64,000 bases of DNA, from assembly GCF_029889905.1 (NCBI RefSeq), contig NZ_JARANZ010000006.1, positions 186,001 through 250,000 of the forward strand, read 5' to 3'. Shown piece by piece: positions 28,904 through 53,579 of the stretch (its first letter is position 1; every line of letters starts with the position of its first letter). The DNA comes from Chromohalobacter sp. 11-W. Its GTDB lineage: Bacteria > Pseudomonadota > Gammaproteobacteria > Pseudomonadales > Halomonadaceae. The notes beneath the pieces were generated by a model that saw nothing but the letters and a program-made list of their open reading frames with translations, did not search any database and was not told where the DNA came from. The translations under genes were made by a program, and so were the position numbers.

Positions 28904-30367
<1,464 letters not shown>

Positions 30368-36835: not shown

Positions 36836-36864
36836 GTCGTTACCTGTAAAGAATAAAAGAAAGC

Positions 36865-36890
36865 TGGAAGCTAGAAGCTAGAAGCCAAGA
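36865..36890 (-). repeat. Short CTAGAAG repeats upstream of lysS
   Basis: GCTGGAAGCTAGAAGCTAG and following bases: two to three diverged copies of the same heptamer that is expanded at 50046-50150 (there written GCTTCTA on the plus strand). Confidence 0.8.
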
Positions 36891-36960
36891 TCAAACTACC
36901 ACTCCACAACCACTCCACGGCTTTTGAAGTGTGACTTTTGATCTTTCTTCCCTCTTACAG

Positions 36961-36986
36961 CTTCCAGGCACGAAGTGCCGCTCTTC
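36961..36986 (-). repeat. 26-bp hairpin module, copy A
   Basis: On the minus strand: GAAGAGC, stem GGCAC, loop TTC, stem GTGCC, then TGGAAG. It begins 8 bases after the prfB stop codon. Confidence 0.9.
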
Positions 36987-36994
36987 AGGCTTTC

Positions 36995-38093
36995 TTAAAG
37001 CCCTTGTTTCAGGCTCGCCTCGATGAACTGATCCAGATCGCCATCGAGCACTTTCTCGCAGTTGCTGGACTGCACGCCGGTGCGCAAGTCCTTGATGCGC
37101 TGGTCATCGAGCACATAGGAGCGGATCTGACTGCCCCAGCCGATATCCGATTTGTTGTCCTCGGCTTCCTGTTTGGCGGCGTTGCGCTTATCCATTTCCA
37201 GCTCCCACAACTTCGCCCTGAGCTGCTTCATGGCGAAGTCGCGGTTGGCGTGCTGGCTGCGCTGGCCTTGGCATGCCACCACGATCCCCGTGGGCTCGTG
37301 GGTGATACGCACCGCCGAGTCGGTGGTGTTGACGTGCTGGCCGCCCGCACCGCTGGAACGATAGGTATCGACGCGCAGATCGGACGGATTGACCTCGATC
37401 TCGAAGTTGTCGTCGATTTCCGGCGATAGAAACACCGAGGCGAACGAGGTATGCCGACGCCCCCCCGAGTCGAACGGGCTCTTGCGCACCAGGCGATGCA
37501 CACCGGTCTCGGTGCGCAGCCAGCCGAAAGCGTAATCGCCTTGAATGTGCAAGGTCGCCGACTTGATGCCCGCCACATCGCCGCTGGACAACTCGATGAT
37601 ATCGGTCTTGAAGCCGTGATGTTCGCACCAGCGCAAGTACATGCGCAGCAAGATGTTGGCCCAATCCTGCGCCTCGGTGCCGCCAGACCCGGCCTGGATA
37701 TCGAGATAGGCGTTGTTGGCGTCCATCTCACCGGAAAACATACGCCGGAACTCGAGCTTGGTGAGCTGTGACTCGAGTTTTTCGAGTTCACTCCGCACTT
37801 CATCGACGGTGGCGTCGTCTTCCTCCATCACCGCCAGCTCGAGCAGTTCCTGATGATCCATCAGGCCTCGGTCCAGCGCGTCGAAGGTTTCGACGACCGC
37901 CTCCAGAGTGGCACGCTCCTTACCCAGCTTCTGCGCGTAGTCCGGATCGCTCCACACATCCGGGTTTTCCAGCTCGCGGGTGACTTCCTCTAGCCGTTCT
38001 TTCTTTGCGGCATAGTCAAAGATACCCCCTCAGGACGTCTGTCCGTTCGGACAGGTCCTTGATGAGGTGGTTGATCGGGTTGATCTCTTGCAT
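36995..38093 (-). CDS. prfB: Peptide chain release factor 2, with programmed +1 frameshift
   Basis: RF2 recognises UGA and UAA. The first 25 codons (38093-38019, [10 protein letters not shown]...LRGYL) end at an in-frame TGA (38018-38016). A +1 shift skips base 38018 and continues from GAC at 38017 to 36995, giving 365 residues, the same as E. coli. The tripeptide anticodon SPF (RKSPFDSG) and the catalytic GGQ ([13 protein letters not shown]) are present. The ATG at 38093 gives the family N terminus. It is therefore an intact autoregulated gene, not a pseudogene. Confidence 0.97.
38015..38032 (-). promoter_or_regulatory. RF2 programmed frameshift signal
   Basis: On the minus strand AGGGGG TAT CTT TGA C: an internal Shine-Dalgarno-like AGGGGG, the slippery CTT and the TGA stop followed by C, identical in layout to the classical bacterial prfB site. 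Confidence 0.97.
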
Positions 38094-38357
38094 GGGAATC
38101 CTTTTCAGGCGCGCTGATTCGCACCGCAGCGGCGTGTTTGCCGGTACACAGTGAAGAAAAGAGACACATTGTAGCCAATGCACCCGCGAGCGGCTATCCC
38201 ATGCCGCGCTTCGCGGCATTCGTAAGCGCTCTATCGAATATATGAAAAAGCATATACGAAATTTGCAATAGACACGTTTCATCAGACGGGGAGATGGTAA
38301 TCCCACGATGTGGCGCCTTTTACGGCATCCGGTACAACAACAAACGGAACAGACAAT
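38094..38357. promoter_or_regulatory. Divergent prfB/oppA promoter region
   Basis: 264 bases without a gene. The middle (about 38230-38285) is AT-rich, with TATATGAAAAAGCATATA, and probably contains the oppA promoter. No specific operator is recognised. Confidence 0.4.
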
Positions 38358-39944
38358 ATGCTTCGACACTCGCATACTCTACTCGGCGCCATGGCGCTGT
38401 CTTCTCTGGCTCTGGCAACACCGGCCCAGGCCGAGACCCTCAACATCGGCGTCATGGGCGAACTAGCGTCCTTCGATACCTCACAGGTCTCCGGTGGCGT
38501 CTGGGAATCCCAAGTTCTGATGGACGTCTACGAAGGCTTGCTAAAGGAAAACCCCAAAGGCGAGGTCATCCCCGGCATGGCCACTGACTGGGAGATTTCC
38601 GAGGACGGCAAGACTTACACTTTCCACCTGCGTAAAGATGCCAAGTGGTCCGACGGTGAGCCGGTCACCGCAGAGGATTTCGTGTTCGGCTGGCAACACC
38701 TTCTCGATCCGGCCAGCGCCTCGAAATATGCTTACCTGCTCTACCCGATCAAGAACGCCGAAGCCGTCAATACCGGCGATAAATCGCTCGATGCCTTGGG
38801 TGTGGCATCACTCGACGATGGCAAGACCCTCAAGGTGACTCTCAATTCACCGACCCCCTTCTTTCTCCAGCTACTGACCCACTACACCGCCTACCCCGTG
38901 CCCAAGCATGCCGTCGACGAATACGGCAAAAAATGGGTCAAGATGGGCAACATCGTCACCAACGGCGCTTTCACGCCAGCGGACTGGGTCTCGCAATCGC
39001 GTATCAGCGTCGATAAAAATCCTGAGTATTACGATGCCGATGAGGTCAGCCTCGACGGTATCAACTATTTCAATACCGAGGATCGCAACGCTGCCATCTC
39101 GCGCTTTCGTGCGGGTGAGCTGGATATCATCCGCGATTACCCTTCGAGTCGCTACCATTGGCTCGAAGAGAACCTGCCAAAAGCCACGCATCTGAGCCCG
39201 ATGCTGGGGTCCTACTACTACGTGCTCAACACTCGCGAAGGCCGACCGACCGCCGACAAGCGTGTCCGTGAGGCGTTGAACCTGGTCGCACGTCGTAAGG
39301 TACTCTCCGAGCAAATCATGGCCGGCAGCTTCAAGGACGCCTATTCGTTAGTCCCCCCGGGCACCAGCCACTACGACGTACAGCACATGGACGGCGTCGA
39401 GGGTGACTACGCCAAACGCTTGGCCAAGGCCAAGCAACTAATCAAGGAAGCCGGCTACGGCCCTGACCATCCGCTGCAACTGAAGCTGCGCTACAACACA
39501 TCCGACGAGCACAAGAAGATTGCCATCGCCATGGCGGCGATGTGGAAGCCGCTGGGTGTCGAGGTCGAAATGACCAACGCCGAAGCCACCGTGCACTACC
39601 AGACCATTCAAGAAGGTGACTTCGATGTCGCCCGCGCCGGCTGGATAGCCGACTACAACGATGCCGAAAACTTCCTGACGCTACTGCGCGGCGGTGTCGG
39701 CAACAACTACGGCGACTACGACAACGCCGAGTACGACAAGCTGCTCGACCAGGCCGCCAGCACTCAAGACCTCGACAAGCGCGAGGCGCTTCTCGAAAAG
39801 GCCGAGAATGTCGCTCTCGATGACTATGCCTTGGTCCCGTTGCTCTACTACGTGACACGCAACCTGGTAAATCCCGAGATCACTGGTTGGCAGGACAATG
39901 CCGAGGATGACCACCCCTCACGCTGGGTGAAGTTCTCTGAGTAA
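38358..39944 (+). CDS. oppA: Oligopeptide ABC transporter substrate-binding protein
   Basis: 528 residues with a signal peptide ending ATPAQA-ETL. It is a family 5 solute-binding protein (VYEGLLKENPKGEVIPGMA, YTFHLRKDAKWSDG, FRAGELDIIRDYPSSRY). It should bind peptides in the periplasm. The ATG at 38358 is preferred because it starts the signal peptide. It heads a four-gene operon with both permeases and a fused ATPase. Confidence 0.92.
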   Translation: MLRHSHTLLGAMALSSLALATPAQAETLNIGVMGELASFDTSQVSGGVWESQVLMDVYEGLLKENPKGEVIPGMATDWEISEDGKTYTFHLRKDAKWSDGEPVTAEDFVFGWQHLLDPASASKYAYLLYPIKNAEAVNTGDKSLDALGVASLDDGKTLKVTLNSPTPFFLQLLTHYTAYPVPKHAVDEYGKKWVKMGNIVTNGAFTPADWVSQSRISVDKNPEYYDADEVSLDGINYFNTEDRNAAISRFRAGELDIIRDYPSSRYHWLEENLPKATHLSPMLGSYYYVLNTREGRPTADKRVREALNLVARRKVLSEQIMAGSFKDAYSLVPPGTSHYDVQHMDGVEGDYAKRLAKAKQLIKEAGYGPDHPLQLKLRYNTSDEHKKIAIAMAAMWKPLGVEVEMTNAEATVHYQTIQEGDFDVARAGWIADYNDAENFLTLLRGGVGNNYGDYDNAEYDKLLDQAASTQDLDKREALLEKAENVALDDYALVPLLYYVTRNLVNPEITGWQDNAEDDHPSRWVKFSE

Positions 39945-40002
39945 CTGCCCTTCCCTATGACGAATTCGCCGTCCCATCTCGGGGCGGCATGCGGAATGCC
40001 TC

Positions 40003-40929
40003 ATGCTGACCTACACCCTGAAGCGCCTGCTCATGGCGGTTCCTACCCTGCTGATCGTGATCACGATCTCGTTTTTCCTGATGCGCGTGGCACCGGGAGG
40101 GCCGTTCGATGGCGAGCGCCAATTGCCCCCGGAAATCGAAGCCAACCTTAAGGCGGCGTACCACCTTGACGAGCCATTGCCCCAGCAATACCTGCGCTAC
40201 ATGGGCAATTTGTTGCAGGGCGATTTCGGGCCATCGTTCAAATACAAGGATTTCTCGGTCACCGAGCTGATCGCCCAGGGCTTTCCGGTGAGCCTCGAGA
40301 TCGGCGGCCTGGCAATTCTTCTCGCACTTTTGATCGGACTCCCGCTGGGCACTATCGCTGCCCTACGACGCAACACGATGATCGATTATACGGTCATGGG
40401 GACGGCACTGGCGGGTATCGCAGTGCCCAACTTCGTGATCGCGCCGATCCTGGCGCTGGTATTCGGCGTCCTGCTCGCCTGGCTCCCGGCCGGTGGCTGG
40501 AACGGCGGCGCCCTGCCCAACCTGGTATTGCCGGTGATCGCGCTGTCGATTCAGCAGATCGCCTACATCGCACGCATGATGCGCGCCAGCATGATCGAGG
40601 TCCTCGGCAGCCATTACATTCGCACGGCGCGTGCCAAAGGACTTTCCGAGCGTCAGGTGATCTGGCGCCACGCCATCCGCCCCGCGCTGCTCCCCGTGAC
40701 TTCCTACCTGGGTCCGGCGATCGCCGGGATCATCACCGGCTCGGTGGTGATCGAGCAGATTTTCGGTATCCCGGGCATCGGACGTTACTTCGTTCAGGCC
40801 GCGCTCAACCGCGACTACACCCTGGTGATGGGCACGGTGGTGTTCTATGGCGCACTGATCGTACTGATGAATCTGCTCGTCGATCTGCTCTATTCCGTTC
40901 TCGATCCGCAAATCCGCTATGACGACTGA
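40003..40929 (+). CDS. oppB: Oligopeptide ABC transporter permease OppB
   Basis: 308 residues with six membrane helices. The N terminus MLTYTLKRLLMAVPTLLIV and the EAA loop (IRTARAKGLSERQVIWRHAI) are typical of OppB/DppB permeases. It lies 58 bases after oppA. Confidence 0.94.
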   Translation: MLTYTLKRLLMAVPTLLIVITISFFLMRVAPGGPFDGERQLPPEIEANLKAAYHLDEPLPQQYLRYMGNLLQGDFGPSFKYKDFSVTELIAQGFPVSLEIGGLAILLALLIGLPLGTIAALRRNTMIDYTVMGTALAGIAVPNFVIAPILALVFGVLLAWLPAGGWNGGALPNLVLPVIALSIQQIAYIARMMRASMIEVLGSHYIRTARAKGLSERQVIWRHAIRPALLPVTSYLGPAIAGIITGSVVIEQIFGIPGIGRYFVQAALNRDYTLVMGTVVFYGALIVLMNLLVDLLYSVLDPQIRYDD

Positions 40930-40945
40930 CCGGCGAGGAATGACC

Positions 40946-41851
40946 ATGACTACCGAATCCACGTCCTACAGCGGCCACAATGTGTCGGGCGACGCTCCGG
41001 TCGCGGGCGAGAGCCTCGGCCGAGACGCCTGGCGACGTCTCAAACAGAACAAGGCAGCGATGGTCAGCCTGATCTTGCTGATCCTCATCAGCGCGGTGTG
41101 TGTGGTCGGCCCCTACCTGCTTCCATGGGGGTTGGCCGAAGTCGACTGGAACGCCTTCAGCGCCGCGCCGAGCCTCGAGAGCAACCACTTCCTGGGTACC
41201 GATGCCAACGGTCGCGACCTCCTGACCCGTACGCTCTATGGCGGTCGCGTGTCGCTTTCGGTGGCTTTGGTGGCCACCTTCGTCAGCCTGGTCATCGGGG
41301 TACTTTACGGGGCCATCTCCGGCTATGTCGGCGGGCGACTGGACAGCCTCATGATGCGCTTCGTCGACATCATGTACTCACTGCCATTCATGTTCCTGGT
41401 CATCCTTTTGATGGTGGTCTTCGGGCGCAATATCTTCCTGATCTACGCCGCCATCGGCGCGGTCGAATGGCTCGATATGGCGCGCATCGTGCGCGGCCAG
41501 ACGCTGGCCCTCAAGCAGCGCGAGTTCATCGAAGCCGCCCACGCCTTGGGGGTCCGCGATCGCAAGATCGTCACCCGCCACCTGATCCCCAACGCCATTG
41601 GTCCGGTGATCATCTACGTCACGTTGACCGTGCCCAAGGTCATCCTGCTCGAGAGCTTCCTGTCTTTTCTCGGCCTCGGCGTGCAGGAGCCGCTGACCAG
41701 TTGGGGCGTATTGATTTCCGAAGGCACCGACATGATGCAGAGCGCGCCGTGGCTGCTGCTGGTGCCGTCGCTGTTCCTCGCCGTGACTCTGTTCTGTCTC
41801 AACTTCCTGGGCGACGGACTGCGCGACGCCCTCGACCCGAAAACACGCTGA
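40946..41851 (+). CDS. oppC: Oligopeptide ABC transporter permease OppC
   Basis: 301 residues with an N-terminal OppC segment (DAWRRLKQNKAAMVSLILL), LGTDANGRDLLTRTLYGGR and the EAA loop EAAHALGVRDRKIVTRHLI. The ATG at 40946 has GAGGA six bases upstream. An in-frame ATG at 40919 overlapping oppB is the alternative. Confidence 0.92.
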   Translation: MTTESTSYSGHNVSGDAPVAGESLGRDAWRRLKQNKAAMVSLILLILISAVCVVGPYLLPWGLAEVDWNAFSAAPSLESNHFLGTDANGRDLLTRTLYGGRVSLSVALVATFVSLVIGVLYGAISGYVGGRLDSLMMRFVDIMYSLPFMFLVILLMVVFGRNIFLIYAAIGAVEWLDMARIVRGQTLALKQREFIEAAHALGVRDRKIVTRHLIPNAIGPVIIYVTLTVPKVILLESFLSFLGLGVQEPLTSWGVLISEGTDMMQSAPWLLLVPSLFLAVTLFCLNFLGDGLRDALDPKTR

Positions 41852-41858
41852 GGTGACC

Positions 41859-43457
41859 GTGGCTGACAATCTGCTTGAAATCGACAACTTGAGTGTCGAC
41901 TTCCAACTGCCCACTGGGACCGTCTCGGCGGTCAAGGGAGTGAGCTTTTCCATCCAACCCGGCGAGACGCTGGCGCTGGTCGGCGAATCGGGCTCCGGCA
42001 AGTCGGTGTCATCGACCGCCGCGATGCGTCTCTTGCCTGAGTTGGCCCAAACGTCTGGCGCCATCCGCTTCAAGGGCGAGGATCTTTTGAGCGTCACACC
42101 CAAGCGCATGCGCCGCATCCGAGGCAACGCCATTTCGATGATCTTTCAGGAACCGATGACCTCGCTCAATCCCTTGCAGCGCATCGAAACACAGATCGCC
42201 GAGGTGCTGGAAAAGCACCTCGGCCTCAATAGACGTCAGGCGCGCCCCAAGGTCATCGAATTGCTCGAGCAAGTGGGTATCCCCGAGCCGTCTAGACGCA
42301 TCGGCAGTTATCCCTACGAGCTCTCCGGCGGCCAGCGCCAGCGGGTAATGATCGCCATGGCACTGGCCTGCGAGCCCAAGCTTTTGATCGCCGACGAACC
42401 CACCACCGCACTCGACGTCACCGTCCAGGCGCAGATTCTGGCGCTGCTCAAGGATCTTCAGTCGCGCTACGGCATGGCGATTCTGTTCATCACCCACGAC
42501 TTGGGCATCGTGCGCCACTTCGCCGACCGGGTATGCGTGATGCGCCACGGTGAGCTCGTCGAATCTGGCACCACCGGTGAGGTATTCGACAGTCCACAGC
42601 ATGACTACACACGCATGCTGATCGATGCCGACCCACGCGGTCGCAAAGCCCCCGTCGATACGACAATGCCAATGCTCCTGGAGGCAAAAGACGTGCGCGT
42701 ACGCTTCGCGCTCAAGAAGCGCCTGCTCCGTGCCAGCGAGTACTTCGAGGCGGTCCGTGGCATCGACCTGAGCATCCGTCGCGGCCAGACCGTGGGCATC
42801 GTCGGTGAATCCGGCTCGGGCAAGTCGACACTTGGCCGGGCGCTGTTGCGACTGCTCAAGAGCCGCGGCGAGATTCGCTTCGACGGCAGCGATATCGCCA
42901 CGCTCGATACTGGCAGCATGCGCCCCCTGCGCTCGCGTATGCAGGTAGTCTTTCAAGACCCCTTCGGCTCGCTGTCGCCGCGTATGACCGTCGGCGAGGT
43001 GATCAGCGAAGGCCTGCGCGTTCACCACCCCGAGCTCAATCGCCGCCAACGCGAGGCGCGAGTGATCGCCGCGCTCGAAGAAGTCGCACTGGACCCGGCG
43101 ATGCGCAATCGCTACCCGCATGAATTCTCCGGTGGTCAGCGCCAGCGCATTGCCATCGCCCGGGCGCTGGTACTCAAGCCGGAATTTCTGCTGCTCGACG
43201 AACCCACCTCGGCGCTCGACCGCTCGGTGCAGGTCACGGTAATCGACCTATTGCGCGACCTGCAGCAAAAGCATGACCTGACCTACCTGTTCATCAGTCA
43301 CGATCTCGCGGTTGTGCGTGCGCTGGCCGATACCGTACTGGTGATGAAAGAGGGTGAAGTCGTCGAACAGGGCACTACCGAGGAGATCTTCGCCAATCCG
43401 CGCGAACGCTATACCCAGGAACTGATGAGAGCCGCCTTCGTCGAAGACGCCGCTTGA
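41859..43457 (+). CDS. oppDF: Oligopeptide ABC transporter ATP-binding protein, fused OppD-OppF
   Basis: About 532 residues carrying two complete ABC ATPase domains in one chain. Both Walker A motifs read GESGSGKS. The signatures are LSGGQRQRV and FSGGQRQRI, and the Walker B motifs [12 protein letters not shown] and [11 protein letters not shown]. It replaces separate OppD and OppF. The start is GTG; the one at 41859 is preferred because the earlier GTG (41853) overlaps the AGGTGA ribosome site. The oppC stop is 7 bases before. Confidence 0.92.
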
Positions 43458-43485
43458 CCCTGACCTCCCCCGCCCTCGTAAAGTC

Positions 43486-43512
43486 CGCTGCAAACGTCAT
43501 GCGTTTGCAGCG
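43486..43512. terminator. Inverted repeat after oppDF
   Basis: An 11-bp perfect stem CGCTGCAAACG / CGTTTGCAGCG with a 5-base loop, 28 bases after the oppDF stop. No T run follows, so it may be an operator instead. The rest of the 254-base gap up to the next gene shows no gene and probably holds the hydroxylase promoter. Confidence 0.5.
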
Positions 43513-43711
43513 ACGGCAATAAATGCGACCGCCTTAACACATGCTAAATACACGCTCTTAACTGTGGCGTAGCCTCAGCGCGTTCGCCTAGCCAACCTGG
43601 CGAGCTACAAAGACATACACGGCTGTGTTTGTCGGTGCCAGGCTCTCCGACTACGTTTACACGGGGGATGGCAGCAATACCGTTCTCAGCAGACTAATGG
43701 AGGAGTTTGCA

Positions 43712-44617
43712 ATGAAAGAGACTCAAGACCTGTTCCCGACGCGCCTGGAACGCAAGCTGGGGATGTTCGAACGCATCGACCCGGTGGTGCATAGCGAAGG
43801 CGAGCAACGCAAGGGACCGCTCAGCGAAGCCGAGCTCGACGAATTCGAACGCAAAGGCTTTCTCTCCTTCGAAGGATTCTTCGATGAAGACGAAATGGCC
43901 GCGTTCCTCGAGGAGTTGGGCGACTACGAGAATGACGATGACCTCAAGCTCTCGGAAGGTACTATCCTCGAGCCCAGCAAGCAGGAAATTCGTTCGATCT
44001 TCGGCATCCATGAGGTATCCGAGCGGTTCAGCCGCCTGACGCGCGATCCGCGCCTACTGGCAATGGTCCAGCAGATCCTGGGTGGCGATGCCTATATTCA
44101 TCAGTCGCGGATCAACTACAAGCCCGGCTTCAAGGGTAAGGGCTTCGACTGGCATTCCGATTTCGAGACTTGGCACAGCGAAGATGGCATGCCACGCATG
44201 CGCTCAGTGAGCTGTTCGATCATTCTCACCGAAAACGGTGAATTCAATGGCCCACTGATGCTGGTGCCTGGCTCACATAATTACTTCGTTCCCTGCGTGG
44301 GCCGCACGCCGGAGAACAACTATAAAGAGTCGCTGAAGAGTCAGGAAATCGGCGTACCGGACGATGCCAGCCTGCGCGACCTGATGGTCAAAGGCGATAT
44401 CGAGGCGCCCAAGGGGCCTGTCGGCTCGCTGGTGATGTTCGAGTGCAACACCCTGCATGGTTCGAACATCAACATGTCGTGCTGGCCACGCAGCAACCTG
44501 TTCTTCGTCTACAACAGTGTCGAGAACACGCTGCATGACCCGTACTGCGGCAACCGCCCTCGGCCCGAGTTCCTGGCCAATCGCAAGGACTGGAGCCCCC
44601 TGAAACCTGCCAAATAA
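43712..44617 (+). CDS. Ectoine hydroxylase (EctD/EctE type)
   Basis: 301-residue Fe(II)/2-oxoglutarate dioxygenase that turns ectoine into 5-hydroxyectoine. The EctD signature FDWHSDFETWHSEDGMPRMR supplies the first two iron ligands (His, Asp), and the third His is in NTLHGSN. The ATG follows GGAGGAG; a longer frame to 43625 lacks such a site. No ectABC genes are near. From memory, C. salexigens has a second, solitary hydroxylase paralogue called EctE, and this is probably it. Confidence 0.92.
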   Translation: MKETQDLFPTRLERKLGMFERIDPVVHSEGEQRKGPLSEAELDEFERKGFLSFEGFFDEDEMAAFLEELGDYENDDDLKLSEGTILEPSKQEIRSIFGIHEVSERFSRLTRDPRLLAMVQQILGGDAYIHQSRINYKPGFKGKGFDWHSDFETWHSEDGMPRMRSVSCSIILTENGEFNGPLMLVPGSHNYFVPCVGRTPENNYKESLKSQEIGVPDDASLRDLMVKGDIEAPKGPVGSLVMFECNTLHGSNINMSCWPRSNLFFVYNSVENTLHDPYCGNRPRPEFLANRKDWSPLKPAK

Positions 44618-44641
44618 GGCATCGTCAGGGAAAGTGGTAAA

Positions 44642-44676
44642 ACGACGAACCCCGGCATATTGCCGGGGTTCGTCGT
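44642..44676. terminator. Bidirectional terminator between ectoine hydroxylase and FadL-type genes
   Basis: A perfect 16-bp stem ACGACGAACCCCGGCA and its complement with a 3-base TAT loop, midway between two convergent genes. T runs are weak on both sides. Confidence 0.7.
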
Positions 44677-44704
44677 CATGCATCCCAATCGCGCGGAACG
44701 CGGC

Positions 44705-46057
44705 TCAGAAGCGATAATCCATCGACAGCGCGAACACATCGGCCTCGACTTCATAGGTCCCGGACAGGTTGCCGCGGCTGGCATTCTCGTTGGTCGGCGT
44801 GGCGTTCTGATCAATATCGCCATCGTCGCCGAAGACGTGCATGTAGCCCGCCGTCACGCCCAGGCTCGAGGTCGGCATCCAGGTCGCCCCGAGCGTCGCC
44901 CAGCGGCGGTCGGCATCGGGCACACGCGGCGTGCGGTGCTCGCTGTCCGGCACCGGCGATTCGTCGACACCCAGGCCGGCGCGCAGCAGCCACTGCCGAT
45001 TGAGCTGATAGTTAGCCCCCACCGAGAAAGCCCAGGTATCGTCCCAGTTCTCGGTCGTGGTGCTCTGGCCGCCATTATCGAAATCGACGGTCAGTTCCTT
45101 GAAACTGCTCCACTCCGTCCACTCGGCATTGGCCATCAAGGCGAGCCGATCGGTCAACTGATGATAGATCCCCAGGTTGAGGTTAGCCGGCGTGGTGATA
45201 TCCGCCTTGCCGCCGCCGTCCTGCAACTGACCGGTGGCCTGTGCCCCGGCCAATACCGCCTGCCCCGCGGGGCTGTCGGAACTGTAATCGACATCACCGT
45301 CCAGCGTCAGCTCGACCTCCGAGCGGTAGCTGATGCCCAGACGGGTGCGCTCGGTGGCCTGGAACAGCGCCCCAAGAGTGTAGCCGTATCCCCAGTCGTC
45401 ACCGGTCACCTCGGCCATGCCATCGGCATTGCCGATCGCCGAGGGAGGCAACTGACCCGCACCGGCCCCCACCGCGCCCAGATCGATGGCGTTGGAGAGC
45501 GTGGCATCGGCATACTGAGCACGCAGCCCCACCGCCAAGTTAAGGCGATCAGTGGCGCGATAATTCAGTGTCGGCTGGATATCGATGGTCTCGAGCTCGG
45601 TTTCGACGGCGTGATAGCGGCCGATCCACTCCTTGTCATACTTCGTCGAGAGGCCATAGGGTGCGGAGATCGCAAGCCCCAAATCGAAACGTTCATTCAG
45701 GCGCGTCTTGAAGGCGAAACTGGGCACCCAGGCCTCCTCGCCACCCTCGTTATCGCCGCTCCCCATATAACCAGCTCCGCTGACGGAACTCGCCGACGCG
45801 TCGGTCAACTCGAAGCCGGCATCGATGTAGGAAATACCGCCGGACACCTGAGTGCCCTCGACATTACCGATGGCTGCCGGGTTAAAGGTCATGTAGCTGA
45901 CATCCTCGGCGCCGGCCGCCGCACCTGCCATGGCGTTACCCAATGCCTTGGCGCTCTGTTCACGAACCTGAAAGCCCGACGCGGCGGCTTGACCGGTCGC
46001 CATCACGGCGGATGCCAGAGTCACAGCGAGTGTGAGCTTGTTGATCTTGTTATGCAT
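44705..46057 (-). CDS. FadL/OmpP1/TodX family outer-membrane protein
   Basis: 450 residues. A signal peptide (LAVTLASAVMATGQAAA) is followed by SGFQVREQSAKALGNAMAG, the FadL hatch region, and amphipathic strands ending in an aromatic residue (LSMDYRF), typical of an outer-membrane barrel. It should admit long-chain fatty acids or other hydrophobic molecules. An AGAAGAGG site precedes the ATG. No catabolic partner gene is adjacent. Confidence 0.9.
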   Translation of the reverse strand: MHNKINKLTLAVTLASAVMATGQAAASGFQVREQSAKALGNAMAGAAAGAEDVSYMTFNPAAIGNVEGTQVSGGISYIDAGFELTDASASSVSGAGYMGSGDNEGGEEAWVPSFAFKTRLNERFDLGLAISAPYGLSTKYDKEWIGRYHAVETELETIDIQPTLNYRATDRLNLAVGLRAQYADATLSNAIDLGAVGAGAGQLPPSAIGNADGMAEVTGDDWGYGYTLGALFQATERTRLGISYRSEVELTLDGDVDYSSDSPAGQAVLAGAQATGQLQDGGGKADITTPANLNLGIYHQLTDRLALMANAEWTEWSSFKELTVDFDNGGQSTTTENWDDTWAFSVGANYQLNRQWLLRAGLGVDESPVPDSEHRTPRVPDADRRWATLGATWMPTSSLGVTAGYMHVFGDDGDIDQNATPTNENASRGNLSGTYEVEADVFALSMDYRF

Positions 46058-46369
46058 GAAAACGTCCTCTTCTGCGGAGACGTGGAGGCGAAAATTGTCT
46101 TAGGTTTTTACCCTTGCCCGAATAGTGGCGTGCCTCTTCGTTTTGGCCGATGGGCGTTTTCAAGTCAAGAGCAAACGTTTGTTTTAATCTCAGAAACGCT
46201 CATTCTTTAGTCTTATCAAGACTCCCGCATCTAATGTCTTTCAGGGCTGGGGGGATATTTATGTATTTATTTCAATATTTTAAATGAAGGTGTTGGAAAT
46301 AGGCGATGACCGCCTTGACCTTTGTGTTACACAAAGGTTCTAGACTTCTCATATCACTCAGGAGGCTCC
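46058..46369. promoter_or_regulatory. AT-rich divergent promoter region of the FadL and MerR genes
   Basis: 312 bases without a gene, clearly more AT-rich than the surroundings between about 46180 and 46300. The right end contains the MerR-type promoter described at 46315. No other conserved site is recognised. Confidence 0.5.
46315..46346 (+). promoter_or_regulatory. MerR-type promoter/operator
   Basis: The -35 TTGACC and -10 TAGACT are separated by 20 bases, longer than the optimal 17. The spacer is dominated by a dyad with arms ACCTTTGTGT / ACACAAAGGT around one base. This over-long spacer with a central dyad is the hallmark of promoters untwisted by MerR-family regulators. Confidence 0.82.
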
Positions 46370-46795
46370 ATGAAAGTCAGCGACTTGGCGCGTGCCGCTG
46401 GCGTTACCGGCGAAACGGTACGCCATTACACACGCGAGGGATTACTGCATCCGCAACGCGATCCCGACAACGGCTATCAACTCTATGATGCCGATGACCT
46501 CAATCGCCTGCGTTTCATACAGCGCGCACGCACGCTGGGGTTCAGTCTTCGCGAGGTGCGCGAGATTCTCGAACACGCCGACCATGGCGACTCTCCATGC
46601 CCCATGGTGCGCGACCTGCTGGCCGAACGCTTGCCGGAAATTCAGTCACGCATCCGTGAGTTGCAGGCCCTGGCAACGCGCATGGAAAACGCTCTGACCA
46701 CCTGGAGAGACATGCCGGATGGCACGCCCGATGGCCATAGCTTGTGCCGGCTGATCGAGAGCCTGCCCATGGAAGAGCCTGTCCATGGAAAGTGA
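46370..46795 (+). CDS. MerR-family metal-responsive regulator of the copper unit
   Basis: 141 residues. A MerR winged helix (MKVSDLARAAGVTGETVRHYTREGLL) is followed by a dimerisation helix and a C-terminal metal loop. Cysteines occur at 77 (DSPCPMV) and 126 (GHSLCRLIE). CueR-type Cu(I) sensors use two cysteines near 112 and 120 and have Ser at 77, so this is a different arrangement, although the next gene is a copper ATPase. AGGAGG precedes the ATG. It likely activates itself and copA from the promoter at 46315. Confidence 0.88.
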   Translation: MKVSDLARAAGVTGETVRHYTREGLLHPQRDPDNGYQLYDADDLNRLRFIQRARTLGFSLREVREILEHADHGDSPCPMVRDLLAERLPEIQSRIRELQALATRMENALTTWRDMPDGTPDGHSLCRLIESLPMEEPVHGK

Positions 46796-46846
46796 CGACG
46801 GTTTCTCACGCCAGGCGCCATGAGCTCCCTCGAAGGAGAACGCAAG

Positions 46847-49402
46847 ATGAGCACAACGGCTCCCCATTCTTTCACCGTGCCCGGCATGAACTGCCAGGGC
46901 TGCGTCAAACGCATGCGCGAGGCGATTCAGGCCGAGGACACGCAGGCCGAAGTCACCGGCGAGCCCGGTGAAAAGCATCTCAGTGTCGAATCGTCCCTGG
47001 ACACGGCGCGCCTGAGCGCACTGCTCGAGCAAGCCGGTTATCCTCCGGCAACGCACCCACCGGAGACGACGACCAGTACCACTGACGACAGCGCATCAGC
47101 GACGAGCTCGAGCGGCGACCGGCATGACACCGAAGCAACGCGCGACGGGGGGCCAGTTCGCCTATCGTTGTCCGGCATGACTTGCGCCGGCTGCGTCAAC
47201 ACCATCACCCAGGCCTTGAATGCCACGCCCGGCGTGCGCTCGGCCAGCGTCAACTTCGGCTCGCATACCGCCGAGATCTTCGGCGACGCGCGCCCCCAGC
47301 AACTCGTCGATGCCGTGGAAGCGGTCGGCTACGGCGCCGAGCCCATCGAGGATCTCGGCCAGGCCGCACGCACCCGTGAGCAAAACGAGGCGCACGAGTA
47401 CCGCCAGCGGCTCCGCGACACCGCCTTAGGGCTCATCCCCGGGGTGCTGCTGATGGGCAGCATGCTGTTCCATCCTCCACAACTGAGCGGGCCGGAACGC
47501 TGGGTCTGGCTACTGATCGGCGTGGTTACGCTGGGCATCATGGCCACGGCGGGCAGGCGCTTCTTCATCAATGCCTGGAAAACCTTCCGTCATCACCAGG
47601 CCAACATGGATACCCTGATCGCCGTCGGCACCGGCACCGCCTGGCTCTATTCGATGACGGTAGTGCTGATCCCCGAGGCGATTCCAGTCGCCGCGCGCGG
47701 GCTCTATTTCGAAGCCTCAGTCATGATCATCGGCCTGATCAGCCTCGGCAATGCCATGGAGTTGCGTGCCCGGGGGCGCACGTCCCGGGCGCTCAATCGC
47801 CTACTCGACCTGCAGGCGCCCACCGCCCGCGTGATTCGCGACGGTAACGAACACGACGTACCACTTGAGGAGGTTGCCGTCGATGACTGGATTCGCGTGC
47901 GTCCCGGCGAGCGCCTGGCCGTGGACGGCCGCGTCGAGGAAGGTGACAGCCATGTCGATGAATCAATGCTGACCGGCGAGCCTCAACCCGTCGCCAAGCA
48001 TCCCGGCGACGAGGTCAGCGCGGGAACGGTCAACGGCCGTGGCACGCTGGTCTATATCGCTACCCGTATCGGCGCCGACAGTCGCCTGGGGCGTATCGTC
48101 GAGCAAGTGGCCAGCGCCCAGAACTCGCGTCCTCCCATCGGTACGCTAGCCGACCGGATTTCCGCTATCTTCGTGCCTAGCGTGCTGATCATCGCCGTAC
48201 TCACGGCGCTGGTCTGGTTCAATTTCGGCCCCGCGCCGCAGTTGGTCCACATGCTGGTCACCGCCACCACCGTACTGATCATCGCCTGCCCATGCGCCCT
48301 GGGGCTGGCAACACCGATGTCGACCATGATCGGCGTCGGCAAGGCCGCCGAGCACGGCATCCTGGTGCGCGACGGCGATGCGCTGCAGACCGCCAGCAAG
48401 CTGACCACGCTGGTCGTCGACAAGACCGGCACCCTGACCGAAGGTCGTCCGCGCGTGACCTCTGCCCAGTGGGCCACCGAGGATACCCACACCGCCTTGA
48501 GCTGGGTGGCGGCCCTCGAACGCGGCTCCGAGCATCCCCTCGCCGAGGCGCTCGGCGACTATGCCGACCAGCAGGGCGTCACGCAGACCGCGCTTCCCGA
48601 GCTGCGCGAGTTTCAAGCGCTCAGCGGGCGTGGCGTCATCGCCGTCACCGACACGGGGCAGTCGCTGCGACTCGGCAATGCCGCGCTGATGCGCGAAGGC
48701 GATGTCGAACTGGGTCAGGCCCAGAGGTGGGGCGCCGAGCTTGAAGACAAGGCGCAGACACCGCTCTACCTGGCCGCCGACGGGCAGGTGATGGGCGTCT
48801 TCGGTATCAGCGATCCGTTGCGCGAGGATAGCCGCGACGCCGTGGCGCGCTTACAGGCGGACGGCATCGAGGTGGTCATGCTGACCGGCGATAACGCCCA
48901 TACCGCCCGTGCCGTGGCTCAGGCGCTGGGAATCGCGCGAGTCGAGGCCGAGCTATTGCCCGAGGACAAACGCGAAATCGTCGCGCAGTTGCAACGCGAC
49001 GGCCATCTCGTCGGCATGACCGGCGACGGCATCAACGACGCCCCGGCCCTGGCGCAAGCCAACGTGGGCTTCGCCATCGGCCAGGGCACCGACGTGGCAA
49101 TCGAATCGGCGGGTATCACGCTGATGCGCAACTCGCTCCACGGCGTGGCCGATGCCATCGAGATCAGCCGCGCCACTCTGCGTAACATCAAGCAGAACCT
49201 GTGGGGCGCCTTCGGCTACAACGGCTTGGGGATTCCCATCGCCGCCGGGGTCTTCTATCCGCTGACGGGGATGCTGCTCTCGCCCATCGTCGCTGCCGTC
49301 GCCATGTCGCTGTCCTCGGTCACCGTAGTCAGCAACGCCAACCGGTTGAGGCTGTTCAAATCCACGGCACGCCGTGCCAAAACGTCCGAGGAGGCTGCAT
49401 GA
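46847..49402 (+). CDS. copA: Copper-exporting P-type ATPase
   Basis: 851 residues. Two heavy-metal-associated domains have GMNCQGC (near residue 15) and GMTCAGC (near 110), joined by a Ser/Thr-rich linker. The P-type core has the membrane CPC motif (IACPCALG), DKTGTLT, the SEHPLAEA histidine-proline motif and [18 protein letters not shown] in helix 7 and MSLSS in helix 8 are the Cu(I)/Ag(I) class 1B-1 determinants. AAGGAG precedes the ATG at 46847. Its TGA overlaps the ATG of a 25-codon ORF. Confidence 0.95.
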
Positions 49403-49476
49403 CGCTTCTCATCAATCTGATCGGGCTGGCATTGATCGTCGGCATCGCCTGGTGGTTCTGGCTATCGCCACGTTGA
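49399..49476 (+). CDS. 25-residue single-helix membrane peptide coupled to copA
   Basis: The ATG overlaps the copA stop (ATGA) and follows a strong GAGGAGG site. The peptide starts [15 protein letters not shown] and ends WWFWLSPR: one hydrophobic helix with a Trp-rich interface and a positive C terminus. It resembles the membrane anchor seen at the start of some cupredoxin-like proteins in copper operons, without the cupredoxin part, and in size it recalls KdpF-type P-ATPase partners. Function unknown; reality is supported by coupling and ribosome site. Confidence 0.65.
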
Positions 49477-49536
49477 GATCATGGCAGCATGATGGCTATG
49501 CTGAGAGACATCGCGTCGCGGTAAATGGGGAGTGAT

Positions 49537-49956
49537 ATGCCACGCATTCAAGGCGTTCTCGAAACCGCCCTCTACGTCACCGACATGGCCCGCACCCGGG
49601 CCTTCTTCGAGAACGTGATGACACTGTCGGCCTTTACCGCCGACCATCGCTTCACCGCGTACGAGGCCGGGCCAGGCAGCGTGTTGCTGCTGTTTCAACA
49701 AGGCAGCACCGAAGAAACCGTGAACCTGCCGCACGGCATGGGCACCATACCGCCCCATGACGGTGCCGGACGCGTGCATCTGGCGCTGGCCATCGATCGC
49801 GATGAATTGGAAGACTGGGAAACCCAACTCGTCGCCCACGACATTCCCATCGAAGGCCGTACGCACTGGCCGAAAGGCGGTGAAAGCCTCTACTTCCGCG
49901 ACCCCGACGGCCACCTGCTGGAATTGGCCACGCCCGGCGTCTGGCCGAATTACTAA
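49537..49956 (+). CDS. VOC (glyoxalase/bleomycin-resistance/dioxygenase) fold protein
   Basis: 139 residues with the paired beta-alpha-beta-beta-beta modules of the VOC superfamily (VLETALYVTDMARTRAFFE; YFRDPDGHLLELATPG). The His/Glu metal ligands are plausible at the ends of these strands. The substrate cannot be told. GGGGAGTGAT precedes the ATG at 49537. A 26-bp hairpin module begins 8 bases after its stop. Confidence 0.85.
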   Translation: MPRIQGVLETALYVTDMARTRAFFENVMTLSAFTADHRFTAYEAGPGSVLLLFQQGSTEETVNLPHGMGTIPPHDGAGRVHLALAIDRDELEDWETQLVAHDIPIEGRTHWPKGGESLYFRDPDGHLLELATPGVWPNY

Positions 49957-49964
49957 TCAAGCTG

Positions 49965-49990
49965 GAAGAGCGCCGCTGCGCGGCTGGAAG
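49965..49990 (+). repeat. 26-bp hairpin module, copy B1
   Basis: GAAGAGC, stem GCCGC, loop TGC, stem GCGGC, then TGGAAG. Confidence 0.9.
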
Positions 49991-49993
49991 CGG

Positions 49994-50019
49994 GAAGATC
50001 GGCGCTTTGCGCCTGGAAG
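49994..50019 (+). repeat. 26-bp hairpin module, copy B2
   Basis: GAAGATC, stem GGCGC, loop TTT, stem GCGCC, then TGGAAG; three bases after copy B1 in the same orientation. Confidence 0.9.
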
Positions 50020-50045
50020 AACCCCAGGAAGGAGAATCATTCTCG

Positions 50046-50155
50046 GCTTCTAGCTTCTAGCTTCTAGCTTCTAGCTTCTAGCTTCTAGCTTCTAGCTTCT
50101 AGCTTCTAGCTTCTAGCTTCTAGCTTCTAGCTTCTAGCTTCTAGCTTCTAGCTTC
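50046..50155. repeat. Heptamer array, 15 perfect GCTTCTA units
   Basis: 105 bases of an unbroken 7-bp repeat plus a 5-base partial unit. Adjacent units create a CTAG at every junction. It sits between the convergent VOC and recJ genes. Confidence 0.97.
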
Positions 50156-50185
50156 TTCCCTCTTCCCTCTTCCCTCTTCCCTCTT
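50156..50185. repeat. Heptamer array, four TTCCCTC units abutting the recJ stop
   Basis: Four perfect units and a partial one follow the GCTTCTA array directly and run into the recJ stop codon (50184-50186). The same period of seven suggests a common slippage history. Confidence 0.93.
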
Positions 50186-51980
50186 AAACAGGCTCGGCAT
50201 GCTCGATCATCAACTGCAACGACTCACGCCCCCGCCAGCGATTGCGCGATAGCTTATAGGCACAGCGCAGACGATCGCCCAGGCCGAACGGCGGCAGCTC
50301 GCCAGGCGTCAGGGCACGAAACCAGATCGCCTTGAGGCTCACCGCGCCACACGAGAGTTCGAGCATCAGATGATTGCCATCCGCACCCACGGGGCGTAGT
50401 TGCTCGATGCGAAACTCACCGTCGAAAAGCGGGGCGTCGAACTCGCGACCGTAGGGCGCCAAGCGTGCCAGTTCATCCACCGCCGCCAGCGACAGCTGCT
50501 CGGGCGTCAAGGCACCGTCGGTCAGCACATACGGAAAAAGCTCGCGGCCACCGAGTTGCTCCTCGACCGCCGTGAGTAAGGCATCGCGAAATTCCGCCAG
50601 ACGCTCGCGGGGTACGCCAATGCCCGCCGCCCCCCGGTGGCCACCGAAACGTGGCAATGCCTCGGGGGCCAGTTCATGCGCACGCTGCAATGCATCGCGC
50701 AGGTGCAGCCCTTCGATGGAACGTCCCGAGCCGGTCAGCATGCCCGGCGCAGCGGCCGGTGTAAGCACCAACGTGGGACGCCCGAAGGACTGCACCAGGC
50801 GCGAGGCGACGATGCCCTGCACGCCAGCGTGGCCGTCCTCGAGGAAGACCACGATAGCCGATGCTCCCTCGGCCAGCGCGTCGAGCGCCAATGTTCGAGC
50901 GCTCTCGACCATGTCCGCCTCGATCGCCTTGCGCGACTGATTGTCGGTATCCAGCACCTCTAGATGACGCCGCGCCGAGGCGTCGTCGGCGGCGAGCATG
51001 AAATGCAGCGCCGCATAGGGATCATCAAGGCGCGAGCGCGCATTGATGCGCGGCCCCATCTGAAAGGCCAGGGTCTCGGCATCGAAGGGCACGCTGTCGT
51101 CCCCCAGTCGCTCGGCCATGACCCGCCAGCAGGCGGCGCCCATGCGGTTGATCAATGTCAGCCCGTGGCTGACCACGGCGCGGTTGGCGGGGCTCGCCCC
51201 CAGCGAGACGCAATCCGCCACGGTGCCCAAGGCGACGTAGGACAGCCACGGCGACAATTTCGGGGTCGAGGGCGAGGCCACGCCCTGCTCGATGAGCACC
51301 GAGCGCGTCAGTGACATGGTCAGCCACGCCACCATGCATCCGGCGATGGTGGGGTCCGGGTAATCGCAATCGCTGCGTGTGGGATTGACGGTGGCATACG
51401 CTGACGCCGGCGGCCCCGCTGTCGGCAAGGCGTGATGGTCGGTGACCACGACATCGAGCCCGGCCTCACGCAGACGCGCGATACGCGGCTCGTCGGAACT
51501 ACCGCAGTCGGCCGTGATCACCAGGCTAGGGCGTGGCGACAACGCCAGTGTGCGCTCCACCAGCGGCAAACTGATCCCATAGCCATCGAAGATACGATGG
51601 CCGATCAAACTGTGCAGCTTATGCATCGGCACACCGAACAGCTCATTCAGGGTCCGCAGAATGACGACGTGTGAGGTGATGCCGTCGACGTCGTAATCGG
51701 TCAAGATGCCGATATGCTCGCCCTCGGCCACCGCCAGGGCGATTCGCTCGGCGGCACGACGCGCGTCCTGCAGACGTTCGGGGTGCGCCAGATAACGCAG
51801 GCTGGGGTCGATCAGCGACGCGATATCGTCTGTGTAGTCGTGCAGACGCCCGGCCAGTATCCGCGCCTGCAGCTCGCTGAGCCCGGCCGACTGCGCGCGG
51901 CGGTAGACGCTCTCATCACGCGGACGTGACAAGATGCGACGGTTCAGCAGGCGTTGCGGATCATGCTCGGCTACTGACAC
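50184..51980 (-). CDS. recJ: Single-stranded-DNA-specific exonuclease RecJ
   Basis: 598-residue DHH-family 5'-3' exonuclease for recombination and mismatch repair. The metal motifs are TDYDVDGITS, ADCGSS, TDHHALP, and in DHHA1 SGRSIEGLHLRDAL and GGHRGAAG. The C-terminal OB part ends RWRGRESLQLMIE, as in RecJ. Motif I has Val where Ala is usual (DYDADG), and the N terminus differs from the Pseudomonas enzyme as I remember it. It is followed by heptamer arrays. Confidence 0.88.
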   Translation of the reverse strand: MSVAEHDPQRLLNRRILSRPRDESVYRRAQSAGLSELQARILAGRLHDYTDDIASLIDPSLRYLAHPERLQDARRAAERIALAVAEGEHIGILTDYDVDGITSHVVILRTLNELFGVPMHKLHSLIGHRIFDGYGISLPLVERTLALSPRPSLVITADCGSSDEPRIARLREAGLDVVVTDHHALPTAGPPASAYATVNPTRSDCDYPDPTIAGCMVAWLTMSLTRSVLIEQGVASPSTPKLSPWLSYVALGTVADCVSLGASPANRAVVSHGLTLINRMGAACWRVMAERLGDDSVPFDAETLAFQMGPRINARSRLDDPYAALHFMLAADDASARRHLEVLDTDNQSRKAIEADMVESARTLALDALAEGASAIVVFLEDGHAGVQGIVASRLVQSFGRPTLVLTPAAAPGMLTGSGRSIEGLHLRDALQRAHELAPEALPRFGGHRGAAGIGVPRERLAEFRDALLTAVEEQLGGRELFPYVLTDGALTPEQLSLAAVDELARLAPYGREFDAPLFDGEFRIEQLRPVGADGNHLMLELSCGAVSLKAIWFRALTPGELPPFGLGDRLRCAYKLSRNRWRGRESLQLMIEHAEPV

Positions 51981-52049
51981 GAATGACTCCTCGGGAGACG
52001 GCGGGATGGCAAACCGGGGCGTCGCATATCACCACGACGCCTTGGAAGG

Positions 52050-53438
52050 TCAGCGGCGCTGTTCGGCGACGAAGGCCTGCACGGCTTCGAGCTCGGCCGG
52101 CAGCACGGTGTAGCGCTCTTCACGCTCGAGTAAATCGGCCATGTGCGCGGGCAGCGGTGCACCCTCGAAACCCGCCTGGAGCACCGCATCGGCGAACTTG
52201 GCCGGATGCGCGGTCGCCAGGGTGATCATCGGTGTCGAGGCATCCGCACGAACACGTTCAGCGGCACGATAGCCCGTCGCGGTATGCGGATCGAGCAATT
52301 CCTTGGTACGCCCATGCGCGTCGCGAATCACCTCGAGGATGGTGTCGTCATCCACGCTGTGGCTGACGAACTTCTCGCGCAGCCGTGCCAACGGCGCCTC
52401 GGCGAGCACCGCTGGCTCATGCTGGAAACGCTCGAGCAGATCGCGCACGGCGTCGCCATCGCGGTCGTAAGCCTCGAACAGCAGGCGTTCGAAGTTCGAC
52501 GACACCACGATATCCATCGACGGTGCCAGGGTCGCCTTGAGCGCCTGCTTGGAGAAGTCGTTGTCGGCCAGGGTACGATGCAGGATATCGTTGGCATTGG
52601 TCGCGACGATGAACTGCTTGACCGGCAACCCCATGCGATAGGCCACGTAGCCGGCGAAGACATTGCCGAAGTTGGCCGACGGCACGCAGAAGCTCACCTC
52701 GCGATGCGGTGCGCCCAAGGCCACCGCTGAGGCCACGTAATAGACCACCTGCGCCATGATGCGCGCCCAGTTGATGGAGTTGACCGCCACCAGGCGCGTG
52801 CCATTCAGGAACGCTTGATCGGCGAAGCTTGCCTTGACCATCGCCTGGGCATCGTCGAAATCGCCCTCGATGGCGATGTTGAAGACATTGTCAGCCAGCA
52901 CCGAGGTCATCTGCCGACGCTGTACCTCGGATACACGGTTATGCGGATGCAGGATGAAGATGTCGAGGTTGTCGCAATGCCGACAGCCTTCGATCGCCGC
53001 CGACCCGGTATCGCCGGAGGTCGCCCCCATGATCACCGCACGCTCGCCACGCTTGGCCAGGAAGTGATCGAGGATGCGCCCGAGCAACTGCAGGGCGACA
53101 TCCTTGAACGCTAGCGTCGGGCCGTGGAACAACTCGAGCAGGAAGTGGTTGCTGGCGAGCTGGTTGAGCGGCACCACCGCCTCGTGGCTAAAGGAGGCAT
53201 AGGCATCGGTGACGAGCCCCCGGAAGGTCTCGTCGTCGATCTCGCCGCCGACGAAGGGCTTCATCACGCGAAACGCGATCTCGGCATAGGAAAGCCCCGC
53301 CATCGCCTCGAGATCCGCCGTCGAGAGCGTGGGAATCGTCTCCGGCACGTAGAGACCGCCATCGCTGGCCATCCCGGTCAGCACCACTTCTTCGAAACTC
53401 AGCGCCGGCGCCTGGCCGCGCGTACTGATATAACGCAT
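52050..53438 (-). CDS. thrC: Threonine synthase
   Basis: 462 residues, PLP-dependent conversion of O-phosphohomoserine to threonine. It starts MRYISTRGQAPALSFEEVVL. The PLP lysine is in GPTLAFKDVALQLLG, and MGATSGDTGSAA binds the cofactor phosphate region. It is downstream of hom in the same direction, separated by a 141-base repeat-bearing gap. Confidence 0.96.
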   Translation of the reverse strand: MRYISTRGQAPALSFEEVVLTGMASDGGLYVPETIPTLSTADLEAMAGLSYAEIAFRVMKPFVGGEIDDETFRGLVTDAYASFSHEAVVPLNQLASNHFLLELFHGPTLAFKDVALQLLGRILDHFLAKRGERAVIMGATSGDTGSAAIEGCRHCDNLDIFILHPHNRVSEVQRRQMTSVLADNVFNIAIEGDFDDAQAMVKASFADQAFLNGTRLVAVNSINWARIMAQVVYYVASAVALGAPHREVSFCVPSANFGNVFAGYVAYRMGLPVKQFIVATNANDILHRTLADNDFSKQALKATLAPSMDIVVSSNFERLLFEAYDRDGDAVRDLLERFQHEPAVLAEAPLARLREKFVSHSVDDDTILEVIRDAHGRTKELLDPHTATGYRAAERVRADASTPMITLATAHPAKFADAVLQAGFEGAPLPAHMADLLEREERYTVLPAELEAVQAFVAEQRR

Positions 53439-53460
53439 TGCTCGGTTTCCTCGCTAGAAG

Positions 53461-53486
53461 GAAGAGCGCGGCTTCGCCGCTGGAAG
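53461..53486 (+). repeat. 26-bp hairpin module, copy C
   Basis: GAAGAGC, stem GCGGC, loop TTC, stem GCCGC, then TGGAAG, followed directly by CTAGAAG. It is in the hom-thrC gap, which also contains TTCCCTCTTCC near 53560. Confidence 0.9.
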
Positions 53487-53579
53487 CTAGAAGAACGAAG
53501 AGAGACTCAATGGCTAGAACCTGAAAGGCCGCTTCTCTCTTACGTCTTACTTCTTGTCCCTTCCCTCTTCCGTCCTGGT

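Follow-up and report, generated by a model that had tools for sequence, protein, structure and literature searches.

Hairpin modules in the window

We analyzed a stretch of 64,000 nucleotides of Chromohalobacter sp. 11-W (contig NZ_JARANZ010000006.1, positions 186,001 to 250,000; the whole stretch is hereafter called the window), in which an earlier note had described four copies of a 26-bp hairpin with nearly constant flanks. This module reads GAAGANC, a 5-bp stem enclosing a 3-nt loop, and TGGAAG. It occurs in three gaps of the window: between prfB and lysS (copy 1), between a small gene ending at 49956 and recJ (copies 2 and 3), and between hom and thrC (copy 4). The gene context was obtained with our own scorer of open reading frames and with NCBIfam; the small gene is VOC/Fos-like, all its Fos matches being far under the cut-off. 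The coordinates and strands reported for the four copies are right, and each has no flank mismatch and 5/5 Watson-Crick pairs. The copies were also said to adjoin stop codons, which is the case for copies 1 to 3 but not for copy 4: here the stop of hom (53580) is 93 nt away, and the predicted start of thrC (53438) 22 nt.

The 26-mer belongs, as one brick, to a compound intergenic structure, the heptad-hairpin cassette, found in gaps of roughly 80-400 bp. The earlier note saw a real element, but only this one brick, and missed the heptad cassette around the hairpin.

A hairpin family of Halomonadaceae

The layout GAAGANC-N13-TGGAAG has 12 fixed bases, which by arithmetic gives about 0.008 chance matches per 64 kb. 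The 3.66-Mb genome has 10 exact matches (6 forward and 4 reverse), against none for a reversed-pattern control. A covariance search of the whole genome, which had been proposed earlier, retrieved 15 copies with E<1e-3, or 18 when the threshold was relaxed to E<1. The model was built from 51 distinct 26-mers; those among them that come from this genome are bound to match. A pattern search allowing two mismatches was dropped as noisy (415 matches vs 226 in the control).

Across the family, the exact layout was found in 180 of 250 Halomonadaceae genomes, which belong to 18 of the 24 genera. A genome has between 0 and 31 occurrences, and some of the lone matches are due to chance, judging by the listed sequences. 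When the pattern was made stricter on the stem, it matched 6 genomes in a sample of 293 from the order. All 6 belong to the 12 Halomonadaceae of that sample, and none to the 281 genomes from outside this family. A scan of named genomes gave at least 116 stretches, and among the matches listed are Halomonas, Chromohalobacter, Salinicola, Litchfieldella, Billgrantia, Modicisalibacter, and Onishia, all of which we take to be Halomonadaceae. These results support the view that the 26-mer is a dispersed family of extragenic hairpins, similar to repetitive extragenic palindromic (REP) elements and spread throughout the Halomonadaceae. The suggestion of a REP-like dispersed family is thus borne out, including the pairing that covaries among copies.

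Pairing of the stems between copies

The covariation score of the 51 distinct 26-mers is 0.269, vs 0.088 for shuffled sets (none of 500 reaches the observed value) and at most 0.051 for slid controls. A pattern without constraint on pairs 2 and 3 of the stem collected 129 distinct instances. Watson-Crick bases form pair 2 in 109 of them (58.6 expected under independence) and pair 3 in 111 (94.8 expected). Pairing is nevertheless imperfect. Among the 51 distinct forms, 30 are fully paired, 16 have 4/5 pairs, and 5 have 3/5, and in 24 of the 129 instances pair 2 or pair 3 departs from Watson-Crick pairing. The claim that a change in either arm is always compensated therefore holds for the four copies of the window and fails for the family, and even one of the 10 exact-flank copies of this genome has an uncompensated stem (GCCGC/GCGCC at C34:135835). 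Thirteen of the 24 mismatched instances are the variant GTCGC/GCTCC (found among loci L049-L164), in which two pairs of the layout are broken; by eye, a pairing in shifted register (GAGCG...CGCTC) is possible.

A larger set of 103 distinct forms defined by their flanks was assembled from 78 rows copied by hand from among the matches listed for family genomes, leaving out sequences already entered, and from all layout matches in the loci that we fetched. It contains nine fully paired stem types, and 29 forms pair at just 0-2 of 5 positions. Mismatches comprise 10 G-U and 15 A-C when counted in the 74 of 103 forms with 3 or more pairs, which gives no sign that pairing is kept on the RNA strand; these numbers are small and include copies antisense to the flanking genes.

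Anatomy of the cassettes

On the module strand, a cassette has one or more hairpin bricks in a GAAG-rich arm, a centre, which in some gaps holds an ordinary terminator, and, in about half of the gaps, a tandem array of heptads that mostly carry CTTC. It commonly abuts a stop codon, from which it is phased in steps of 7 bp. In 107 gaps with modules, the autocorrelation was 0.435 at lag 7, 0.365 at lag 14, and 0.349 at lag 21, vs 0.273-0.309 at lag 7 in control gaps. Arrays of at least three heptads were found in 48 of these 107 gaps, vs 2/46 convergent, 10/188 tandem, and 2/87 divergent controls (12/234 for convergent and tandem controls combined). Among the 50 arrays whose gap has a module that could be placed, 49 lie 3' of it, and these 49 carry CTTC in 39 cases, GAAG in 4, and neither in 6, on the module strand. 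The commonest canonical heptads are AAGCTGG, AAGAGGG, AAGCTCG, AAGAAGG, and AAGCTAG.

The phase was studied with the 85 modules located at most 40 nt from the upstream stop. Their distances to it, modulo 7, are not uniform (4, 6, 6, 10, 28, 20, and 11; p=1e-6), since two phases hold 48 of the 85, and 41 of the stops merge into a repeat start resembling TAAGC or TGAAGC. The two arms have a complementarity of 12.65 within cassette loci (107 gaps of 70-420 bp), vs 9.39 in control gaps. The features of the window are given in Table 1.

Table 1. Modules, heptad arrays, and cassettes, with positions in the window
Feature	Position	Strand	Description
Hairpin module copy 1	36961..36986	-	Stem GGCAC/GTGCC; 8 nt past prfB stop; strand is that of prfB and lysS
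prfB-lysS gap cassette	36836..36994	-	Order: module, AAGCTGTAAGAGGGAAG arm, centre, TTCTAGC/TTCCAGC heptads (36861-36885); fold -59.6 kcal/mol, z -4.22 vs shuffles
Hairpin module copy 2	49965..49990	+	Stem GCCGC/GCGGC; 8 nt past stop of gene ending at 49956
Hairpin module copy 3	49994..50019	+	Stem GGCGC/GCGCC; 29 bp beyond copy 2
Heptad arrays following modules 2 and 3	50046..50185	+	(GCTTCTA)15.9 then (TCTTCCC)4.6, reaching recJ stop; copy number differs among species
Whole convergent-gap cassette, gene ending at 49956 to recJ	49957..50183	+	Fold -92.7 kcal/mol, z -3.10
Hairpin module copy 4	53461..53486	+	Stem GCGGC/GCCGC; hom-thrC gap; antisense to hom and thrC
hom-thrC gap cassette	53439..53579	-	Fold -50.5 kcal/mol, z -1.13, not significant; no fold excess (27/200 shuffles at least as stable)

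The window holds two other kinds of repeats, a perfect hexanucleotide array, (TCGGGC)7.7, at 29946-29991 and a tandem repeat of 27 bp at 21684-21748 (2.4 copies, matches 92%).

Placement relative to genes and replication

The 129 modules are distributed between convergent (56), tandem (58), and divergent (2) gaps; of the other 13, 4 overlap a called gene and 9 are outside the range that the called genes span. The remaining gaps of at least 60 bp are 47 convergent, 216 tandem, and 103 divergent. Divergent gaps are thus depleted of modules (2/116; Fisher p=6e-12) and convergent gaps enriched (p=3e-14). In convergent gaps, 50 of the 56 modules read inward, at most 34 nt from the stop of the gene to which they are sense.

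All 129 modules were assigned to a replication strand by means of the third-position G-C skew of codons, with a correction for gene strand. The leading (G-rich) strand carries the module in 92 of them: 46/56 in convergent gaps, 22/33 in tandem gaps when sense, 12/25 in tandem gaps when antisense, and 12/15 among the rest. In single-contig genomes, the module is on the leading strand in 23/26 cases in G216, 7/9 in G093, 4/5 in G226, and 1/5 in G091, i.e., 35/45 in total (p=0.0002); the skew was sampled sparsely there and the strand assigned by eye, and copies sharing a cassette are not independent. A preference for the leading strand is present in convergent gaps.

Turnover at orthologous gaps

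We compared six orthologous sites (A to F) within the genus, reading in-place changes by eye. The flanking coding sequence aligns at 83-100%, except at site F in genome G064 (75%). At site A (prfB-lysS), the stem is identical in 6 of the 7 congeners fetched, and the seventh, G093, has an unrelated cassette. At site B, the first brick is half deleted in locus L173 and replaced by a GACGC/GCGTC hairpin in L176 and L177, and the number of heptads varies. The second hairpin of this site has, in L177, a paired two-sided change with an altered loop; this is the single such case in place, and it looks like a replacement. At site C (hom-thrC), both flanks were matched in five orthologues, and all five have other cassettes, rich in CGAGC. 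The gap has a second cassette type, GAGTGGCGAGCTTCGAGCCGCGG ... CGGCTCGTCACTC, instead of the GAAG cassette of the window in L173, L175, and L178, and a further variant in L176 and L179.

At site D, one-sided changes affect hairpin 1 in L218, L220, L221, and L226 and hairpin 2 in L220; hairpin 2 of L226 and both hairpins of L219 are broken, and the whole cassette is replaced by (GCCCGAA)n in G075. Stem changes at site E are also one-sided (L228/L229, L231, and L232), unlike those of an ordinary terminator stem of the same site, which changes on both sides (TCGC/GCGA vs TAGC/GCTA). The heptads of site E are nearly uniform within a locus and species-specific, either (GCTCGAA)n or (GCTCGTA)n, with little array in G064. 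Site F has one brick in this genome and two in G093. The gap of G041, about 30 nt long, has no brick; the brick is also missing in G064, but there another gene lies downstream. Hence, an orthologous gap can have another whole cassette, a duplicated one, or none while the flanking genes stay, and module stems that change in place do so, by eye, mostly on one side at a time.

Alternative explanations: transposition, RNA-level function, and chance

The earlier note proposed a possible mobilization by a REP-associated tyrosine transposase (RAYT). We found no match to PF01797 (Y1) in this genome, whereas 5 of 14 control genomes have one. Y1 matches are present in 97 of the 250 Halomonadaceae genomes, with no association with the module: they occur in 13 of the 30 genomes with at least 8 layout hits and in 84 of the 220 others (Fisher p=0.69; counted by hand). 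A Y1 gene flanked by the module, which was the check suggested at the time, was not found in the 28 Y1 loci that we examined out of the matches in 97 genomes, namely 20 RAYT-like loci picked by hand at mid-range scores and the 8 strongest matches; the label RAYT is our own reading of weak Y1 scores and of flanks. In several of the 20 RAYT-like loci, palindromes of the types GTGGGAGCGAATTTATTCGCGAT, GTAGGAGCGACTTCAGTCGC, or GGGGTCTGACCCC adjoin the gene. The absence of Y1 from this genome, the lack of association, and the 28 module-free Y1 loci that we examined lead us to reject a RAYT as the current mobilizing mechanism.

These Y1 loci have features of their own. In L180-L182, L184-L186, and L199, Y1/RAYT-like genes stand beside palindromes tagged with GTGG or GTAG, e.g., GTGGGAGCGAATTTATTCGCGAT and GTAGGAGCGACTTCAGTCGC, and apparently are REPtrons of the usual type. 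The Y1-like genes of L187, L188, L190, and L198 are flanked on both sides by GGGGTCTGACCCC / GGGGTCAGACCCC palindromes, with a different tag, and other Y1-like loci carry GGGGTCTGTCCCC.

Exact-flank matches due to chance do occur, as shown by the 29 of 103 forms that barely pair, but a chance resemblance among GC-rich gaps is refuted as the explanation by the contrast with the control pattern (10 matches vs 0), by the occurrence in 180 of 250 family genomes, and by the slid and shuffled covariation controls. The copies could also be fossils of a REP family spread by a RAYT that this genome subsequently lost. The module is indeed a tagged, dispersed, extragenic hairpin of 26 nt with stem types common to several copies, and its strand preference would suit a single-strand transposase. 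However, the Y1 results given above, including the other palindromes beside several Y1 genes, apply to this scenario as well, the tag is GAAG instead of GTAG, and the heptad phase is left without explanation, which makes it very improbable. We also regard as improbable, if slightly less so, that the cassette is a non-autonomous transposon similar to miniature inverted-repeat transposable elements, with the GAAG and CTTC arms as its ends and moved by an unrecognized transposase. The long imperfect inverted repeat, the empty and filled orthologous sites (site F), and the whole cassettes that differ between conserved flanks are in line with it. Yet neither fixed ends nor a clear target duplication were seen (one comparison of an empty and a filled site, by eye), the length of the cassette and its heptad unit vary freely, and the modules are phased from the stop codon.

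Another explanation places the function at the RNA level: transcribed hairpins and the long stem would protect the 3' ends of mRNA, or terminate or attenuate transcription, and selection would keep the stems paired. The position of nearly all modules after genes (2/116 in divergent gaps), the stable folds at two of the three window sites, and the covariation of stems between copies are as expected from such an element. Terminator-like sites are also found in 24 of 54 tandem cassette gaps, vs 57 of 188 tandem controls, and the hairpin of copy 4, read antisense, is followed by GCTCTTCCTT and listed as terminator-like by the scan; the sense module is directly followed by TGGAAG. On the other hand, such sites are no commoner in convergent cassette gaps (31/52) than in module-free convergent gaps (29/46), some enrichment being seen in tandem gaps; shuffled cassettes have such sites in 22 of 107 cases. 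Mismatches show no excess of G-U, the orthologous in-place changes are, by eye, mostly one-sided, and at two of the window sites the neighboring genes run in one direction and probably form operons. A search of Rfam gave no match above the gathering score between positions 36700 and 53700 of the window. We consider an RNA-level element rather unlikely as the main explanation.

Proposed growth and rebuilding of cassettes

The explanation that we favor, and hold to be about as probable as its being wrong, is that the 26-mer is the hairpin brick of a compound repeat present throughout the Halomonadaceae, whose cassettes expand, contract, and are reconstructed at the DNA level as the genome replicates. 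Their anatomy, phase, placement, and spread in the family are observed, and so are their turnover between orthologous gaps and, for convergent gaps, a strand preference; we infer the link of this turnover to replication, as well as the enzymes or errors responsible for the rebuilding. Slippage would alter the heptad arrays, and template switching between the inverted arms would bring in new stems as matched pairs, as would ready-made hairpin bricks copied from other loci. Cassettes would persist downstream of genes because insertions in promoter gaps are selected against, and any RNA function, such as 3' end protection or weak attenuation, would be secondary and specific to some loci. More tentatively, and with a doubt that outweighs our confidence, these cassettes may be of an undescribed kind: polar, heptad-phased from the stop, and oriented with replication where genes converge. 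Related species would exchange them as complete alternative alleles at orthologous gaps, and template switching linked to replication would rebuild them without a transposase.

Several observations weigh against DNA-level rebuilding during replication. No slippage or switching event was directly observed, and 59 of the 107 cassette gaps have no array of three or more heptads. The arms are no more complementary within than between loci (12.65 vs 12.10; 8/107 above the 95th percentile). The strand preference is weak for tandem-sense modules (22/33), absent for tandem-antisense ones (12/25), and reversed in G091 (1/5), and in the window, where the leading strand appears to be the minus strand, only copy 1 of the four agrees. 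A convergent gap always has one gene on the leading strand, and the replication and the transcription of that gene are therefore inseparable there. The rarity of modules in divergent gaps (2/116) would fit an RNA function as well. Separately, an arm-by-arm coevolution of a long inverted repeat within each locus is unsupported, since the complementarity is not locus-specific.

The cassettes offer a tractable system in which to study a possible growth of extragenic hairpins that needs no transposase. Their stems differ yet stay paired between copies, but they change in place mostly one side at a time, and this combination implies that an apparent compensatory change among repeats need not mean selection on RNA. 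Halomonas and Chromohalobacter are used industrially, and differences in cassette length could serve as strain markers in these genera.

Comparison with known repeats

In the literature, which was also searched with literal repeat strings, we recognized no description of such repeats in Halomonas or its relatives, subscription papers and preprints being largely outside this search. The words Halomonas and Chromohalobacter are not in the main text of PMC3733652, PMC6006769, and PMC2817692. REP elements are tagged hairpins of 20-40 bp, extragenic and mostly located in convergent and unidirectional gaps, according to the part of PMC3733652 that was available. The module of Halomonadaceae is likewise a short, tagged, extragenic hairpin with many dispersed copies. 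However, REP copies usually exceed 100 per genome (PMC2817692, available in part), whereas we count 10 exact and 15 model matches here and at most 31 exact matches per genome in the family. The flanks GAAGANC and TGGAAG also differ from the GTAG or CGTC tag, no RAYT partner was found, and the module is embedded in heptad arrays.

The heptads have counterparts elsewhere. In the accessible part of PMC4692102, the GGGAATC heptamers of Xanthomonas are extragenic, at most 50 bp after a stop (sense) or before a start (antisense), under-represented between divergent genes, and in many cases arranged as inverted pairs. The cassettes of Halomonadaceae also have tandem 7-bp units in gaps after stops, but these lack the G-quadruplex motif that constitutes the Xanthomonas unit, for which the same portion of the source mentions no hairpin brick; as to replication, the paper reports that these heptamers have no leading/lagging preference. 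The TAACTGA heptads of Beggiatoaceae, Cyanobacteria, and Bacteroidetes are intergenic 7-bp direct repeats, as are those held by the cassettes, and between two Cyanothece strains their indels are mostly in 7-nt increments (PMC4679880, available sections). In Guaymas Maribeggiatoa, they are mostly just upstream of start codons and, in those sections, have a single indirect repeat, unlike the cassettes. Intrastrand triplex motifs consist of purine and pyrimidine stretches within repeats; these repeats fold on a single strand, and their sites tend to change between strains (PMC4666352, as far as accessible). The cassettes may resemble them in having, as judged from sequence, purine/pyrimidine stretches in repeats and change-prone sites, whereas the triplex motif described in that portion is a specific G/C-rich sequence. 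Set beside these systems, we favor a module that is REP-like in its form, similar to heptameric repeats in its build, and that behaves as a mosaic at the DNA level.

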